Part shown: positions 11,941-60,084 of the stretch, in pieces
Numbering within the stretch: position 1 is the first letter of the stretch
How the letters are laid out: each line of letters opens with the position of its first letter
Assembly: GCF_004698125.1 (NCBI RefSeq)
Contig: NZ_ML214297.1
Location: forward strand, 1 to 64,000
DNA: 64,000 bases
Direction: 5' to 3'
From: Halosimplex halophilum
GTDB taxonomy: Archaea > Halobacteriota > Halobacteria > Halobacteriales > Haloarculaceae
Position numbers and translations under genes: made by a program
The notes under the pieces: model-generated
Database searches by the model: none
What the model was told of the DNA's origin: nothing
Seen by the model: only the letters and a program-made list of their open reading frames with translations

Positions 11941-13218
11941 GTGTTCGGAGTCGCGCAGTTGTCGTCGGTCCCGCTGGACCAGGAGGTGCTCCAGATCACG
12001 CTGGCGGGCGTGCTGGGCCTGTTCCTCGGGCTGGAGCGGGAGTGGTCGCACAAGTCCGCCGGCGTGCGGACGTTCTCGCTGATCAGTATGCTCGGCGCGG
12101 CGTTCACCGTGCTGGGCTCGACGCCGCTGGTAGTCGTCGGCGGCGCGCTCGTCATCGTCCAGGGGACGCTGCTGGCGGTCAGGGGGTTGCTTGCCGACGA
12201 GGCGGAAGACGAGGGGCTGTCGCTGACCACGTCGATGTCGATGCTGGTCGCCTACGCCGTGGGGACGCTCGTCGCCAGCGCCTACACCATCGAGGCGGTG
12301 ACGGTGACGGTCTTCTCCGCACTCCTCCTCGTGCTCAAGCGGGAACTGCACAGCTTCGCCTGGGGGATGACCCGCACCGAACTCCGGTCGGCCGCGGAGT
12401 TCGCCATCCTCGCGTTCGTCGTCTACCCGCTGTTGCCCGCCCGGAGCTACGAGGTCGGCGCCGCCGACCTGATGGTCGAGGTCGAACCCCGGGTCATCTG
12501 GCTGATGGTCGTCACCGTCGCGGCCATCGGCATCGTCAACTACGCCATCGTCCAGACCTACGGGAGCCGCGGCATCGCCGTCACCGGCTTCTTCGGCGGA
12601 CTGGCCTCCTCGACGGCGGTGGTCGGCGCGATGCTCGACCACGTCGAACAGCGCCCCGCGGTGAGCTCCTACGCCGTCGCGGCCATCCTGCTGGCCGACG
12701 CGGCCATGGCCGCCCGCAACCTCGTCATCGCGCTCGTCTTTACCTTCGAGACGGGGCTGCTCCTCGGGGCCGTGGTCCCGCTCGGCGCGGTGATACTCGG
12801 GAGTATCGCCATCGCGGGCTACACCGCCGACTGGACGGAGAACCTGGAGATGGACCTGGAGAGCCCCTTCTCGCTGCGGAACGTCCTGAGCTTCGGCGGC
12901 CTGTTCCTGGTCGTCATCGTCGCCGGCGGGCTGGCCGCCGCCGAGTTCGGCCGGCTGGGCTTCTACGTGACCGCCGCGCTGACGGGGCTGGTCTCCAGCG
13001 CCGGGGCGACCACCTCGGCGGTGATCCTCTACCGCGGCGGCGGCCTCTCCGGCGAGGCGGCCGTCTTCGCCATCCTCCTCGCGACGGCCTCCAGCATCGT
13101 CGTCAAGGCCGGGCTGACCTTCGCCGGCCCCGACCGGGAGTTCGCCGTCAAGACCGCGACGGTCAGCACGGTCCTGCTGGTCGCCGCCGGCGCCGTCACG
13201 GTCGGCGCGACGCTGTGA
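11941..13218 (+). CDS. MgtC/SapB-DUF4010 membrane protein
   Basis: A 425-residue integral membrane protein with an MgtC-like N-terminal domain (LGLFLGLEREWSHKSAGVRTFSLISMLG, residues about 25-52, the family signature with E-R-E and R-T-F) and a DUF4010 C-terminal domain, about 11 membrane segments in all. MgtC relatives affect magnesium homeostasis and ATP synthase in bacteria; the archaeal role is not established. The GTG start at 11941 is supported by the TATA box 24 nt upstream. It diverges from the AI-2E gene. Confidence 0.88.
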   Translation: MFGVAQLSSVPLDQEVLQITLAGVLGLFLGLEREWSHKSAGVRTFSLISMLGAAFTVLGSTPLVVVGGALVIVQGTLLAVRGLLADEAEDEGLSLTTSMSMLVAYAVGTLVASAYTIEAVTVTVFSALLLVLKRELHSFAWGMTRTELRSAAEFAILAFVVYPLLPARSYEVGAADLMVEVEPRVIWLMVVTVAAIGIVNYAIVQTYGSRGIAVTGFFGGLASSTAVVGAMLDHVEQRPAVSSYAVAAILLADAAMAARNLVIALVFTFETGLLLGAVVPLGAVILGSIAIAGYTADWTENLEMDLESPFSLRNVLSFGGLFLVVIVAGGLAAAEFGRLGFYVTAALTGLVSSAGATTSAVILYRGGGLSGEAAVFAILLATASSIVVKAGLTFAGPDREFAVKTATVSTVLLVAAGAVTVGATL

Positions 13219-55103: not shown

Positions 55104-55868
55104 TTACGACGCCCCGTCGAACCCGGCGTCTGCCAGCACTGTTTCGCGCCGGTCGCGGTCGAACGCGTCGAAGCCCGCTTCGTCCAGCACGGCCACGTCG
55201 ACTTCCTCGGCGGTCGGCGTCTCGTCGCTGCTCTCCGCGAGCGCAGAGAGTGCGAGCGAGAGGCCCGCCGGAGTGTCCAGCCCGCGCTCGTACTCGGCTT
55301 CGAGGTGGTCGCGGACGGCGTCGCTCCCGCGCCCGACCGCCGTCGCGCGCCACTCCGTGGGCGTCCCGGAGGGGTCGATCTCGTAGAGCCGCGGGTCGAC
55401 ATCGGTTTCGGCAGTTCCCTCCATCGCCGGGGACGCCTCCGGGACGCCGCCGACGAGGAGCGCGGCGCCAAACGGCCGCGTCCCGCCGGTCTGGGTCGAC
55501 TCCTGGATCCGGTCGGCGACGGCCTTCGCCAGCGGTTCGACGCCCGGCGGCTCCCCGTAGCGCAGCCGCTCGCGCTGGGCGAACTGCCGCCCGAAGTCGA
55601 CGAGCCGCCGCGCGTCGGCGACGTGCCCGGCTGTTGCGACGCCAAGCCGGCCGTCCAGATCGTGGACCTTCTCGATGCTGTCGGTCTCCATCAGCGGCGA
55701 CCGCGGTCGGGCGTGTGCGGCGAACACCACCGCCTCCTCGGTCGCCACGCCGACGGCTGGGCTCCCGCGCTTGACCGCCTCGCGCGCGTACTCGACCTGG
55801 TACAGCCGACCGTCGGGGGAGAACACCGTTACCCCGCGGTCGTACGCCTGCTGGTCGTTCGATTGCAT
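55104..55868 (-). CDS. psmA: proteasome alpha subunit
   Basis: A 254-residue 20S proteasome alpha subunit. The N-terminus carries the gating YDR motif (residues 9-11 in QQAYDRGVTVFSPDGR) and the Lys that receives HbYX-type ATPase tails is kept in SIEKVHD. GHVADARRLVDFGRQFAQ and RPFGAALLVGGV are typical. A 12-residue insert, about 155-170 (PEASPAMEGTAETD), is unusual. Its ATG overlaps the stop of the beta subunit by 1 nt, so the two are made as a pair. Confidence 0.93.
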   Translation of the reverse strand: MQSNDQQAYDRGVTVFSPDGRLYQVEYAREAVKRGSPAVGVATEEAVVFAAHARPRSPLMETDSIEKVHDLDGRLGVATAGHVADARRLVDFGRQFAQRERLRYGEPPGVEPLAKAVADRIQESTQTGGTRPFGAALLVGGVPEASPAMEGTAETDVDPRLYEIDPSGTPTEWRATAVGRGSDAVRDHLEAEYERGLDTPAGLSLALSALAESSDETPTAEEVDVAVLDEAGFDAFDRDRRETVLADAGFDGAS

Positions 55869-56584
55869 CAGGCCACCTCCTCGGCGGCGTCGGAACCGTC
55901 AGCGGCTCCCGCCTCGTCGTATCCCTCGATGTCGACCCCGCCGGCGGTGACCGTCGCGATGGTCACGCCGTTCCCGCTCGCGGTGTCGCGCTCGCTCGCC
56001 GCTTCGACCGCTGCGACGGCGGCGTCGGTCGCCTCGCCGAGTTTCGCCCCGGGGTCGAACCGCCGTTCGAGCACGCCGTAGGCGACCTGCATCCCGCTTC
56101 CGCCCGCGGCGTAGTCGGTCGCCATCACGCTCCCGCCGCCGTCCAGCTCGTAGACGTGGCTTCCCTCGCTGTCGACTCCACCGAGGATCGGCGCGACCGG
56201 CAGCCCCCGCACGAGGTGGCCCGCAGTCTGGGAGAGCGCCCGCATGCTCATCCGCTCGTCCCGGCGGGACTCGTAGAGGCTCGTCTCCGCCCGCAGCGAC
56301 CGGACGAGGTTCTGCGCCGGCCCGACCGACCCCGAGATCGCCAGCGCGGCGCTCGGGTGGACCCGCGAGACCTTCTCGGCGTTCTTGTTCGTCGTGAACT
56401 TCCCACCGAGGCTCGCCCGCTGGTCGGCCGCCATCACCACGCCCTCGTCGGCTGCGACCGCGACGATCGTCGTCCCCGTGTCGAAGGTCGGCGCGTCGTG
56501 GTCGGCCTGGTCTCCGTTCGGGAGGTTGTCGTGCGGTAGTTCGTGGAGCGGTTCGTCCGCGGGACCGAAGTCGAGTGGCGTCAT
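55868..56584 (-). CDS. psmB: proteasome beta subunit
   Basis: A 238-residue proteasome beta subunit. A propeptide of about 37 residues ends in TG, and mature protein starts TTIVAV, giving the catalytic Thr1 with Asp17 (AADQRAS) and a Lys in NAEKVSR in the place of Lys33. MATDYAAGGSGMQVAYGVLE is the C-terminal signature with the SGS-like element. A TATA box 25-33 nt before the ATG marks a leaderless mRNA, with psmA next. The order beta then alpha in one unit is worth noting. Confidence 0.93.
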   Translation of the reverse strand: MTPLDFGPADEPLHELPHDNLPNGDQADHDAPTFDTGTTIVAVAADEGVVMAADQRASLGGKFTTNKNAEKVSRVHPSAALAISGSVGPAQNLVRSLRAETSLYESRRDERMSMRALSQTAGHLVRGLPVAPILGGVDSEGSHVYELDGGGSVMATDYAAGGSGMQVAYGVLERRFDPGAKLGEATDAAVAAVEAASERDTASGNGVTIATVTAGGVDIEGYDEAGAADGSDAAEEVA

Positions 56585-56608
56585 CGACAGGGTGTCGGGG
56601 CCGGACAG

Positions 56609-56617
56609 AAATATATG
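56609..56617 (-). promoter_or_regulatory. TATA box of psmB-psmA
   Basis: Minus-strand catatattt lies 25-33 nt upstream of ATG 56584, predicting a leaderless psmB-psmA transcript. Confidence 0.65.
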
Positions 56618-56678
56618 TTAGCTAAAAAATGATTTAGCGGCGAGTGAGCGTGGGAAGTGGTATGTCGGTCGGGGAACT

Positions 56679-57518
56679 TCAGTTAGCCGTCTCATTATGG
56701 AGTGTGAGGTTTCCCGTTCTCCTACTCAAACTATAGGCAAATTCTATCTCATTAGAGGTCATATTCCGTTCAGTCTCCCAATACTGTTCCGTAAATTCTA
56801 CGGCATCAATTTGACCGGTATAGTATTCCCGAACCAATGAATTATTTACATAGATGGACTTTGGCGCAGAACCAGTATTATTCACCTCAATAATCTGAAG
56901 ACCTGAAGTTATCTTCCCGTCAATTTTTCCCGTATCGTAGTGAGCTACAGCTTGCGAATAACCACTGGTTACAAGCGTGTTAATCTGTTTAACCCGTTTA
57001 GAATCATTCTTTGATCGCGCAGTCAGATTAAGGATCATGACTAGAGAGTTCTCTTCTCCGACTGTCCAACCCTGGATTCTAATGGGTGTTTCAGCATCCA
57101 CTCCAGTTTCTCCAGCTACCACGCTGACAAAATCATGATATTTTTTATTCGCATAAGTTTCTGTTGAAGTTGAAGAAGTTGATGCCGTCGGAGGCACTTC
57201 CGTCGGAGATTGTGTAGGCGTTGGGACCGATGTTGGTGTTGGTGAAAGTGTTGGTTTAGAAGTTGGTACTGGAGAAACGATCTGTGTCGTGGTCAACGGT
57301 GTTTCCTGAAACGTTGTGGTTGTGATATCTGACCTTTGAATCTCGGTTGAATTTGGGGTTGGTGTATTCCCAAACTTATTATTTCCACCCTCACTAGACC
57401 AAAAGTGGATCCCTGGATTAGTAATAATGATCGTAGATACAACTAACACAGGGAGGAGTACCAGCCCAACTTGTTTCACCCATTTAGTACTTAAACTGAT
57501 GGCCATGAATTTATTCAT
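56679..57518 (-). CDS. AT-rich secreted or anchored protein with Thr/Pro linker
   Basis: A 279-residue protein. An N-terminal membrane segment (residues about 14-34) is followed by a linker of about 85 residues rich in Thr, Ser, Pro (TPTPTSVPTPTQSP), likely O-glycosylated, then a C-terminal domain of about 150 residues (YHDFVSVVAGETGVDAETPIRIQGWTVGEENSL... ending NLTLHNETAN) with several NxT/S sites. Third codon positions are often A or T, unlike the rest of the window. It starts 5 nt after the PKD-protein stop, so they are one unit. No family recognised. Confidence 0.78.
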   Translation of the reverse strand: MNKFMAISLSTKWVKQVGLVLLPVLVVSTIIITNPGIHFWSSEGGNNKFGNTPTPNSTEIQRSDITTTTFQETPLTTTQIVSPVPTSKPTLSPTPTSVPTPTQSPTEVPPTASTSSTSTETYANKKYHDFVSVVAGETGVDAETPIRIQGWTVGEENSLVMILNLTARSKNDSKRVKQINTLVTSGYSQAVAHYDTGKIDGKITSGLQIIEVNNTGSAPKSIYVNNSLVREYYTGQIDAVEFTEQYWETERNMTSNEIEFAYSLSRRTGNLTLHNETAN

Positions 57519-57523
57519 TTTGT

Positions 57524-58882
57524 TTAAATCCCTGCCCGATACCGATCAGGTGGTACCCGGCCAGTTTTGGTATTTGTAGTACCTGTATCGTTTCCACTGT
57601 TGGTCGTGGTCCCCGACTGTTTTTCTTGTATCGTGTTACGTATTCTATCGGGTATATTTCCGAGATCGCCACTACCAGCGTTTGACGAAGTGCCAGAATC
57701 TCCATTGTTAGATCCAGTAGTCTCAGTTGAGGAATCATCGTCATCAGAACTTGATTTATTGTTAGATGGCGAACCTCCAGAAAGATTACCTGATTCACCA
57801 GACATAGAAATAACTCTTCCATCCGAATTCACCTCAGATTCCGGATCGACGCTCACAGTATCGACACCTAGCGCCTCCTTGTACGCTTCCTGGCTGTCGA
57901 AGGTCACCATGTCGTCCACGGAGTCGTAGGACACGCCGTCGTTGTTCTGGGCGAACTCCTCGTCTACGTTCACCTGGGCCCACTGGACCGACCCGTCGTC
58001 GTCGGCGTCGGAGATGACGATGCCGTTGCTGTCGATCGTCATCCGGTCGTTGTCGCAGTAGCGGTCGTCGTCCCTGTTGTAGTGCGAGCATTCCGACCCA
58101 TCGTCGTCGCCGCCCGAGTCACCGCCGGAAGTGGACCCGCCGCCGGAACCGACTCCGATCGATCCACTGCCGCCGCCGCTACCGGGTGAACTCGGGGCCG
58201 TGACCGTGACGTTCTTCGTCGCCGTGCGCTGGCGACCGAGCCGGTCGACGGCGGTGACCCGGAGCGTGACGGTCCCGTCGTGCCTGAACGCGTGGAGCCT
58301 GTCGACCGACGCGCTCTCGCCCGCGAGCGTCGTCCGGTTGACTCGCCGTCCGTCCGCTCGCCAGACGACCGCCGCGAGGTCGTTCGCACCGGCCGAGACG
58401 GTCGCCGTGTACTGCGCGACGGCGCCTTCGACCACGCTGTCCGGACCGCTGATCGACACCGACGGTCCGTTCGACGGCTCGACGTGGACCCGGAGTGTGT
58501 CCGTGCTGGTGGCACCGTCCTCGTCGGTCACCGTGACCGTCGCGTTGTAGGTGCCGGTCGCGCGCGGGACGAACCGCGTCCGCCCGCAGGTCTCGCACGA
58601 CGGCGTCGTGTAGCTGCCGTCGGGTTTCTCCAGCCGCCAGCGGTAGCTGTCGATCTCCCCGTCGGGGTCGCGGGACCCGGTCGCGTCCAGATACACCGTC
58701 GCGTTGGCGCTGACGGTCCGGTCGAGCCCCGCGTCCGCCAGCGGGGCTTTGTTCCCTCCGCCGTCCGGGCCGCTCCCGGCCGCTGCGACCGCTCCGCCGG
58801 CTACCGGACCAGCGGCGAACGCCGCGCTGACGACCAGCACGGCACTCATCACGACCGTCGGAACCCCCTGTTCCCAGCGCAT
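57524..58882 (-). CDS. PKD-domain surface protein with chimeric base composition
   Basis: A 452-residue exported protein. Residues 1-35 are a Sec signal peptide. Residues about 45-135 are a PKD domain (APLADAGLDRTVSANATVYLDATGSRDPDG...), about 140-225 a second Ig/PKD-like beta domain. A Gly/Ser linker leads to a short CxxxxxxxxxC segment (ECSHYNRDDDRYC) and an acidic region, and from about residue 348 the sequence becomes Ser/Asn/Thr-rich. The nucleotide sequence shifts from GC-rich to AT-rich at about 57840, inside the gene: the 3' end looks recombined. Probable cell-surface role. Confidence 0.82.
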   Translation of the reverse strand: MRWEQGVPTVVMSAVLVVSAAFAAGPVAGGAVAAAGSGPDGGGNKAPLADAGLDRTVSANATVYLDATGSRDPDGEIDSYRWRLEKPDGSYTTPSCETCGRTRFVPRATGTYNATVTVTDEDGATSTDTLRVHVEPSNGPSVSISGPDSVVEGAVAQYTATVSAGANDLAAVVWRADGRRVNRTTLAGESASVDRLHAFRHDGTVTLRVTAVDRLGRQRTATKNVTVTAPSSPGSGGGSGSIGVGSGGGSTSGGDSGGDDDGSECSHYNRDDDRYCDNDRMTIDSNGIVISDADDDGSVQWAQVNVDEEFAQNNDGVSYDSVDDMVTFDSQEAYKEALGVDTVSVDPESEVNSDGRVISMSGESGNLSGGSPSNNKSSSDDDDSSTETTGSNNGDSGTSSNAGSGDLGNIPDRIRNTIQEKQSGTTTNSGNDTGTTNTKTGRVPPDRYRAGI

Positions 58883-59040: not shown

Positions 59041-60084
59041 ATGGACGAAGACGACGTGCTCGACCGTCTCCGGACGGTCGAGGACCCGGATCTGGGCGAC
59101 GATATCGTCTCGCTGGGGCTGGTCAACTCGGTCGAGTTGGACGAGGAGGAGGTGCGCGTCTCGCTGGCGCTGGGGGCGCCGTACTCCCCGACCGAGACCG
59201 AGATCGCGGGACGGGTCCGCGAGGCGCTGTCGGACCTGGACCGGCGGGTCGAACTGGAGGCGGAGGTCGACAGCGGGCTCGTCGCCGAGGGGTCGGTGCT
59301 GCCGGGCGTCGAGAACGTCATCGCGGTCGCGTCGGGGAAGGGCGGGGTCGGCAAGAGCACCATCGCGGTGAACCTCGCGGCGGGGCTGGCGCAACTGGGC
59401 GCCCGCGTGGGGCTGTTCGACGCGGACGTGTACGGGCCGAACGTGCCGCGGATGCTCGACGCGGATCAGCAGCCCCAGGCGACCCCCGACGAGACGCTCG
59501 TCCCGCCCGAGCAGTACGGGATGAAGCTGATGAGCATGGACTTCCTCGTCGGGGAGGACGACCCCGTCATCTGGCGGGGTCCGATGGTCCACAAGGTGCT
59601 CACCCAGCTGTGGGAGGACGTGGAGTGGGGGAGTCTCGACTACATGGTCGTCGACCTGCCCCCTGGGACCGGCGACACGCAGCTGACGCTCCTCCAGAGC
59701 GTCCCCGTCACGGGCGCGGTCATCGTCACGACTCCCCAGGAGGTCGCCATCGACGACGCCCGGAAGGGCCTGGAGATGTTCGGCGAGCACGAGACGCCCG
59801 TGCTGGGGATCGTCGAGAACATGAGTTCCTTCCGCTGTCCGGACTGCGGCGGCGAACACACCATCTTCGGCGAGGGCGGCGGCGAGGCGTTCGCCGAGGA
59901 GGCGCAGATGCCGTTCCTCGGCGAGATCCCGCTGGACCCGGCCGTCCGCGAGGGCGGCGACGCCGGCGAACCGATGGTGCTCGACGAGGACAGCGGGACC
60001 GGCGAGGCGTTCCGGTCGTTCGTCGAGAACGCGGCGAACAACCAGGGGATCGTCCACCGGCGGCGCCACGCCGACCGGCGCTGA
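59041..60084 (+). CDS. mrp: Mrp/NBP35 family P-loop ATPase (Fe-S cluster carrier)
   Basis: A 347-residue protein. Residues 1-85 form a DUF59/MIP18-like domain (VLDRLRTVEDPDLGDDIVSLGL), then the deviant Walker A motif GKGGVGKST near 103-111, DADVYGPNVPRML, and VDLPPGTGDTQLTL. A CPDCGG knuckle near 265 is the ligand for the bridging 4Fe-4S cluster of ApbC/Nbp35. It carries clusters to apo-proteins, of which this window has several. ATG 59041 places the DUF59 domain at the start; upstream frame is promoter. Confidence 0.94.
   Translation: MDEDDVLDRLRTVEDPDLGDDIVSLGLVNSVELDEEEVRVSLALGAPYSPTETEIAGRVREALSDLDRRVELEAEVDSGLVAEGSVLPGVENVIAVASGKGGVGKSTIAVNLAAGLAQLGARVGLFDADVYGPNVPRMLDADQQPQATPDETLVPPEQYGMKLMSMDFLVGEDDPVIWRGPMVHKVLTQLWEDVEWGSLDYMVVDLPPGTGDTQLTLLQSVPVTGAVIVTTPQEVAIDDARKGLEMFGEHETPVLGIVENMSSFRCPDCGGEHTIFGEGGGEAFAEEAQMPFLGEIPLDPAVREGGDAGEPMVLDEDSGTGEAFRSFVENAANNQGIVHRRRHADRR

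Follow-up and report, generated by a model that had tools for sequence, protein, structure and literature searches.

Here, we describe a two-gene locus of Halosimplex halophilum that we read, with a probability of roughly 0.6, as a surface module in which an unanchored secreted PKD/Ig-like protein is paired with an anchored partner and which is diversified by cassette replacement. The locus lies in the window, the 64-kb stretch of DNA analyzed here. Based on sequence comparisons, the 3′ tail of the PKD gene and the entire partner gene form an AT-rich cassette that is evidently exchanged as a unit by recombination, and the same comparisons support the two-gene anatomy of the module and the conservation of the compositional step at which the cassette begins. 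From these data, we infer docking between the two proteins, surface display, and function.

The cassette was recognized by its base composition. A two-breakpoint likelihood fit (log-likelihood gain of 176) delimits an AT-rich block of 1,260 bp (56605-57864, assigned to neither strand) with a GC content of 0.431 compared with 0.730 and 0.695 on either side. This block contains the last ~110 codons of the PKD gene, the whole partner gene, and the gap up to psmB. To obtain the background composition, we used 400 kb of samples from the genome, and the contig, of the window; none of 1,540 overlapping 1-kb windows had a GC content below 0.55, and the block is the sole such low-GC place within the 64-kb window. 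Thus, its low GC content is not due to chance. A preliminary description of this DNA had reported strong AT richness from about 57840 down to 56690, a finding that the fitted limits bear out (43% GC versus about 70% outside), and both of its hand counts (25 G+C of 60 for 56761-56820 and 39 of 60 for 12481-12540) were exact on recount. It had also located a breakpoint ~345 codons into the PKD gene. In 15-codon bins over codons ~262 to 382, GC3 is 0.93, 1.00, 0.93, 1.00, 0.93, 0.47, 0.13, and 0.20, which places the edge near codon 340 and agrees with this location; by part, GC3 drops from 0.93 in the PKD and Ig-like domains and 0.87 in a small Cys/Asp-rich domain to 0.30 in the tail. The next gene is compositionally deviant over its whole length, as had likewise been stated (GC 0.42 and GC3 0.37). 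The edge near codon 340 coincides with the end of the predicted fold and the start of predicted disorder; i.e., according to the structural model, the block edge within the PKD gene is a domain boundary.

At the opposite end, the outermost ~75 bp of the block (56605-56678) are intergenic and contain an AT-rich element, CTAAATNATTTTTTAGCTAACATATA (56605-56640, reverse strand), that is conserved before psmB, which encodes the proteasome beta subunit and forms the downstream flank (55868-56584, reverse strand; Pfam Proteasome, 2e-42). The element is conserved in the window and in the loci L045, L046, L047, and L101, and a variant form is found even where the module is missing. It is probably the psmB promoter and, on the downstream side, also the anchor of homology for the exchange. 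The upstream flank is formed by mrp, a gene for an Mrp/NUBPL-type P-loop ATPase (59041-60084, forward strand; Pfam ParA/NUBPL, 2e-101).

The PKD gene (57524-58882, reverse strand) encodes a 452-residue PKD/Ig-like protein with an N-terminal hydrophobic signal and no C-terminal anchor (K319L-like PKD, 1e-16; PKD_4). Its PKD domain (PF22352/PF18911) scores above the Pfam gathering thresholds (60.8 bits versus 27 and 54.9 versus 27). The conserved folded part (residues 44 to 352; 57827-58753, reverse strand) comprises the PKD domain, a second Ig-like domain, a linker, and the small Cys/Asp-rich domain, and is GC rich except for its last ~12 codons. In an AlphaFold2 model based on an 11-row alignment, the protein is predicted to be ordered to about residue 345 except for the linker (residues 236 to 276), where pLDDT is low; pLDDT values are mostly 75 to 96 for residues 56 to 230 and 73 to 86 for residues 281 to 340. 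The tail (residues 341 to 452; 57524-57862, reverse strand) is AT rich, variable, and rich in Ser, Asp, Asn, and Thr, with an amino acid identity of only 0.23 to 0.34 between the window and its Halosimplex relatives, and is predicted to be disordered from residue 351 onward (pLDDT below 50 for residues 351 to 452). In the alignment of the Halosimplex orthologs, it is closed by a conserved TGRVPP-like terminal motif (residues 440 to 445; 57548-57565, reverse strand). A C-terminal hydrophobic segment of 19 residues was found in none of 60 PKD proteins and was also absent from the 11 proteins of the Halosimplex type.

The AT-rich partner gene (56679-57518, reverse strand) encodes a protein of 279 residues with a hydrophobic anchor near residues 14 to 35, a Thr/Pro/Ser linker, and a C-terminal ectodomain (residues 122 to 279; 56682-57155, reverse strand) that is predicted with high confidence to be a compact alpha/beta domain (AlphaFold2 mean pLDDT 90.1, pTM 0.87). 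For this ectodomain, we found nothing above the Pfam cutoff, no PDB sequence match, and no confident fold match (best Foldseek E value 0.09). The fold of the AadA nucleotidyltransferase was considered and rejected, the best VIA-align Z score of 6.3 (rmsd 3.9, 124 aligned residues) being under the level at which this tool is telling. The ectodomain is 80 to 83% identical at the protein level where d4 is about 1, arguing that it is under purifying selection. The named records that match it are those of four species, i.e., Halosimplex pelagicum, Halosimplex carlsbadense, Halosimplex aquaticum, and Halosimplex salinum, and the matches of the narrow ectodomain profile in a class-wide search were nearly all Halosimplex; the wider family was reached via the PKD gene and not via this profile. 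In H. pelagicum (L045:9127-10183, G003:C1), a gene for an IS5-family transposase interrupts the partner gene after the membrane segment and before the linker, and the 9-bp sequence GACTTTTCG is present on both sides of the insertion, like a target-site duplication. Partner genes also occur as two or three tandem copies, behind or away from the PKD gene, in H. salinum (L049:9239-10934) and in the genomes G023 (L052) and G033 (L055).

Exchange of the 3′ cassette of a secreted-protein gene along with the gene downstream is known from polymorphic toxin systems and CDI (PMC3482391). A toxin-like reading of the present locus, with an exchangeable effector at the C terminus of the PKD protein and the partner as the cognate immunity protein, fits the layout with a conserved N-terminal part, a variable 3′ end, and a coexchanged downstream gene, and also the low GC content of the cassettes and the occurrence of partner genes in tandem in H. 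salinum and G023. However, the variable end is predicted to be disordered rather than folded as an effector, and no toxin-like domain or family was detected in the PKD protein or its tail using Pfam and PADLOC. Moreover, the partner, although exchanged along with the tail, is predicted to be an anchored protein that faces outward and has a conserved ectodomain, and would thus differ from a small soluble immunity protein. We therefore regard this explanation as quite unlikely. PADLOC also gave no match to a defense system.

The PKD and partner gene pair is present in six of the seven other Halosimplex genomes, the exception being a genome that is 71% complete, and in all six, an AT-rich block lies in the corresponding place. 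GC3 drops at the homologous codon in each of these six relatives (in G002 as judged by tail values). In the partner ectodomain, the identity at fourfold sites between species is 0.36, compared with 0.26 expected at saturation, and GC4 is mostly 0.36 to 0.47 (0.53 to 0.68 in the two H. salinum copies). The step in all six relatives together with the near-saturated fourfold sites at low GC4 argues that the composition is maintained or constantly resupplied; either the low GC content is kept by selection or local mutation, or it is resupplied by exchange among equally AT-rich alleles.

These data bear on the origin of the cassette. The preliminary description had taken the low GC content as a sign of a recently acquired foreign piece, i.e., AT-rich DNA imported horizontally with a tail and a partner that have not yet ameliorated. 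The sharpness of the step, and the presence of a recombination junction at the step in H. pelagicum, would agree with such an import. However, the step is shared by all six module-carrying relatives and is seen family-wide (see below), the fourfold sites are close to saturation with GC4 still mostly low, and no relatives of the partner were found in IMG/VR contigs, PLSDB plasmids, or PHROGs. On these grounds, we rejected the idea that the low GC content stems from a recent import, which we consider highly improbable; a mobile-element origin of the partner was likewise rejected because no relative was found in these three collections. Nor did the gene with the Thr/Pro linker turn out to be an odd acquisition, as the PKD gene is followed by that of an anchored partner at most loci in the family. 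Against a swap, the preliminary description had set the case of close relatives with the same composition and no polymorphism; the relatives do share the composition, but they are polymorphic. Even though its silent sites are nearly saturated, the cassette stays at ~43% GC in a genome of ~70% GC.

The exchange of the cassette is most evident in H. pelagicum. Compared with the genome G006, its identity at fourfold sites is 0.81 in mrp, 0.89 in the PKD domains, and 0.92 in psmB, and falls to 0.22 in the tail and 0.44 in the ectodomain. Compared with H. carlsbadense, the corresponding identities are 0.65 in the PKD part, 0.64 in the tail, and 0.72 in the ectodomain, and the two cassettes are close to each other (90% amino acid identity). 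At informative sites, H. pelagicum resembles G006 up to about codon 347 of the PKD gene, then H. carlsbadense, and G006 again from the gap between the partner gene and psmB, where the change occurs around the conserved AT-rich element. In AU tests, a grouping of H. pelagicum with H. carlsbadense was rejected on the flanks (p = 4.6e-5) and on the PKD part (3.3e-7), while a grouping of H. pelagicum with G006 was rejected on the cassette (5.9e-79) and on the ectodomain alone (5.2e-4); these p values are somewhat optimistic because the clades were named after the distances had been seen, but the rejections are reciprocal nonetheless. The recombinational swap of the 3′ end of the PKD gene together with the partner gene, as proposed in the preliminary description, is thus supported by the site switches and the reciprocal rejections in H. 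pelagicum and likewise by a second genus. In the window strain itself, the trees revealed no swap, and its cassette is basal to those of the four nearest relatives, the same as its flanks.

Could a relaxed constraint on codons and protein simply let the tail and the partner evolve faster, with a lowered GC content as a by-product and no exchange at all? The predicted disorder of the tail is compatible with this idea, and silent divergence is usually ~3 to 4 times higher in the cassette than in the flanks, including in pairs that show no clear swap (G006 versus G002 and the window versus the others). A faster evolutionary rate of the cassette may therefore contribute. However, rate alone does not account for a d4 of 0.36 between the ectodomains of H. 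carlsbadense and H. pelagicum, which is close to that of their flanks (0.27 to 0.38), when d4 is 1.07 in the closer pair H. pelagicum and G006. Similarly, the purifying selection on the ectodomain and the reciprocal AU rejections, with tree incongruence in several independent clades, speak against relaxed constraint without exchange, and we consider this explanation unlikely.

Evidence for cassette replacement was also obtained in a second genus, g6. Between the loci L112 and L130, identity is 0.95 on one side of the block, 0.62 inside, and 0.91 on the other side; the corresponding values are 0.94, 0.63, and 0.95 for L124 and L131, and 0.91, 0.61, and 0.93 for L128 and L133. The block of low identity spans ~2 kb, and its edges lie within ~70 bp of those of the AT-rich block (653-2530 versus 650-2600, 600-2833 versus 670-2880, and 660-2604 versus 720-2660 in the three pairs). 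By contrast, identity does not drop in the comparison pair L132 and L134 or in L128 and L134, as would be expected if the cassette simply evolved faster. The trees of the PKD part and of the ectodomain conflict at several points: those of the ectodomain reject L112 with L130 (4e-4) and L124 with L131 (1e-4), and that of the PKD part rejects L116 with L117 and L133 (1e-20). The downstream flank was listed for five g6 loci, and the conserved gene behind the module is the same in all of them, whatever the cassette; the cassettes therefore represent alleles of a single locus.

Of the 146 genomes in the family, 106 encode the PKD and Ig-like protein. Among 60 loci fetched from other genera, GC3 falls from a mean of 0.80 in the PKD part to 0.53 in the tail, with a drop in 59 of the 60, and the 600 nt after the PKD gene have a mean GC content of 50% compared with 67% at 2 to 3.5 kb further on, being poorer in 59 of 59 loci. 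Outside Halosimplex, we selected the partner open reading frames with a scored rule, which may have picked the wrong frame in some cases; a lipobox-like motif is present in 29 of the 56 candidates and an N-terminal hydrophobic segment in another 24 (53 in total). The ectodomains of five genera (Halosimplex, g6, g8, g17, and g21) form a single BLASTP cluster of 38, and profile comparisons show a strong link between g6 and g21 (E values of 1e-12 to 1e-25) and a moderate one to the Halosimplex group (3e-5 to 4e-4). In g9, g19, g12, and g43, the fall in GC content is small and the partners lack the common ectodomain; the anchored partners differ between genera, e.g., the partner is YkwD-like in g43.

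In the mechanism that we propose, the first gene would yield a Sec-type secreted protein with a PKD domain and a second Ig-like domain, no membrane anchor, and a disordered tail that ends in a short conserved motif. The second gene would yield the partner, held by an N-terminal membrane segment or a lipobox and exposing, on a Thr/Pro/Ser stalk, an ectodomain that in most cases is of a compact alpha/beta type. The AT-rich cassette of 1.2 to 2 kb consists of the first gene's tail and all of the second gene, and homologous recombination in the conserved flanks, i.e., the PKD/Ig coding sequence upstream and psmB or another conserved gene downstream, would swap it as a whole between related species. 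The complementary anchoring, the close or overlapping gene ends, and the joint exchange suggest that the partner keeps the free PKD protein at the surface by way of the PKD tail; together with the terminal motif, the first and last of these features lead us to infer that the end of the tail docks on the partner. Replacing tail and partner together would then preserve a matched pair and change the exposed part, and the exchange may diversify surface recognition, an adhesion function, or a surface exposed to viruses.

Archaeal recognition and conflict systems are poorly known. The VARTIG modules of Thermococcales, which to date are the only Ig-based hypervariable modules described from archaea, were reported to have no counterpart outside Thermococcales, and owe their C-terminal variability to in situ recombination between species (Makarova et al. 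2021, PMC8416519). Like VARTIG, the locus described here starts with a gene for an Ig-fold surface protein, whose domains are in this case a PKD domain and a second Ig-like one, and continues with variable downstream genes, the partners differing between genera, and in situ recombination between species is found in H. pelagicum and g6. However, the hypervariable part of VARTIG is the distal C-terminal Ig domain, whereas here the PKD and Ig-like domains are conserved and the disordered tail and a separate anchored partner vary; VARTIG proteins are large with a C-terminal sorting signal, whereas the PKD proteins have ~450 residues and the 60 that were inspected lack a C-terminal anchor; and the cassette here is AT rich. 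Tentatively, the module might even be a haloarchaeal counterpart of VARTIG for kin or strain recognition, in which a swappable tail and partner pair would set the specificity of a surface complex (in adhesion, cell fusion or mating, or virus resistance) and be kept variable in many genera of the family as cassettes are replaced, but we regard this more specific idea as doubtful.

In Haloquadratum walsbyi, cell-wall genomic island 1 is a large multigene island with recombined segments of 21 to 25 kb (PMC4535781). It resembles the present module in that haloarchaeal surface genes are diversified by homologous recombination and in its Pro/Thr-rich linkers; it differs in that the unit here is 1.2 to 2 kb, begins or ends within a single gene where two domains meet, and is kept across genera. 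Altogether, the locus looks like a compact surface-variation system that is new for haloarchaea, with sharp, repeatedly used exchange edges and a testable pair of a free secreted protein and an anchored partner. Adhesion, self/non-self recognition, mating, and virus escape are candidate roles.

The genomic position of the module varies. In H. aquaticum (L101:8229-8728), mrp adjoins psmB with a gap of only ~0.5 kb and no module, which instead lies ~180 kb away near cofD. In H. salinum, the module is present twice (L049 and L050; at about 230 kb and 36 kb of G004:C23), the copies being inverted relative to each other and having exchanged flanks, the mrp side being joined to cofD and the other side to psmB, as if a ~193-kb inversion had occurred through the copies. 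The 5′ PKD parts of these copies are 95 to 98% identical over much of ~500 bp, and the remainder is mostly 82 to 89% identical. In other genera, too, the PKD module adjoins mrp, with moaA close by (L161 of g10 and L104 of G022), suggesting that the mrp neighborhood may be ancestral.
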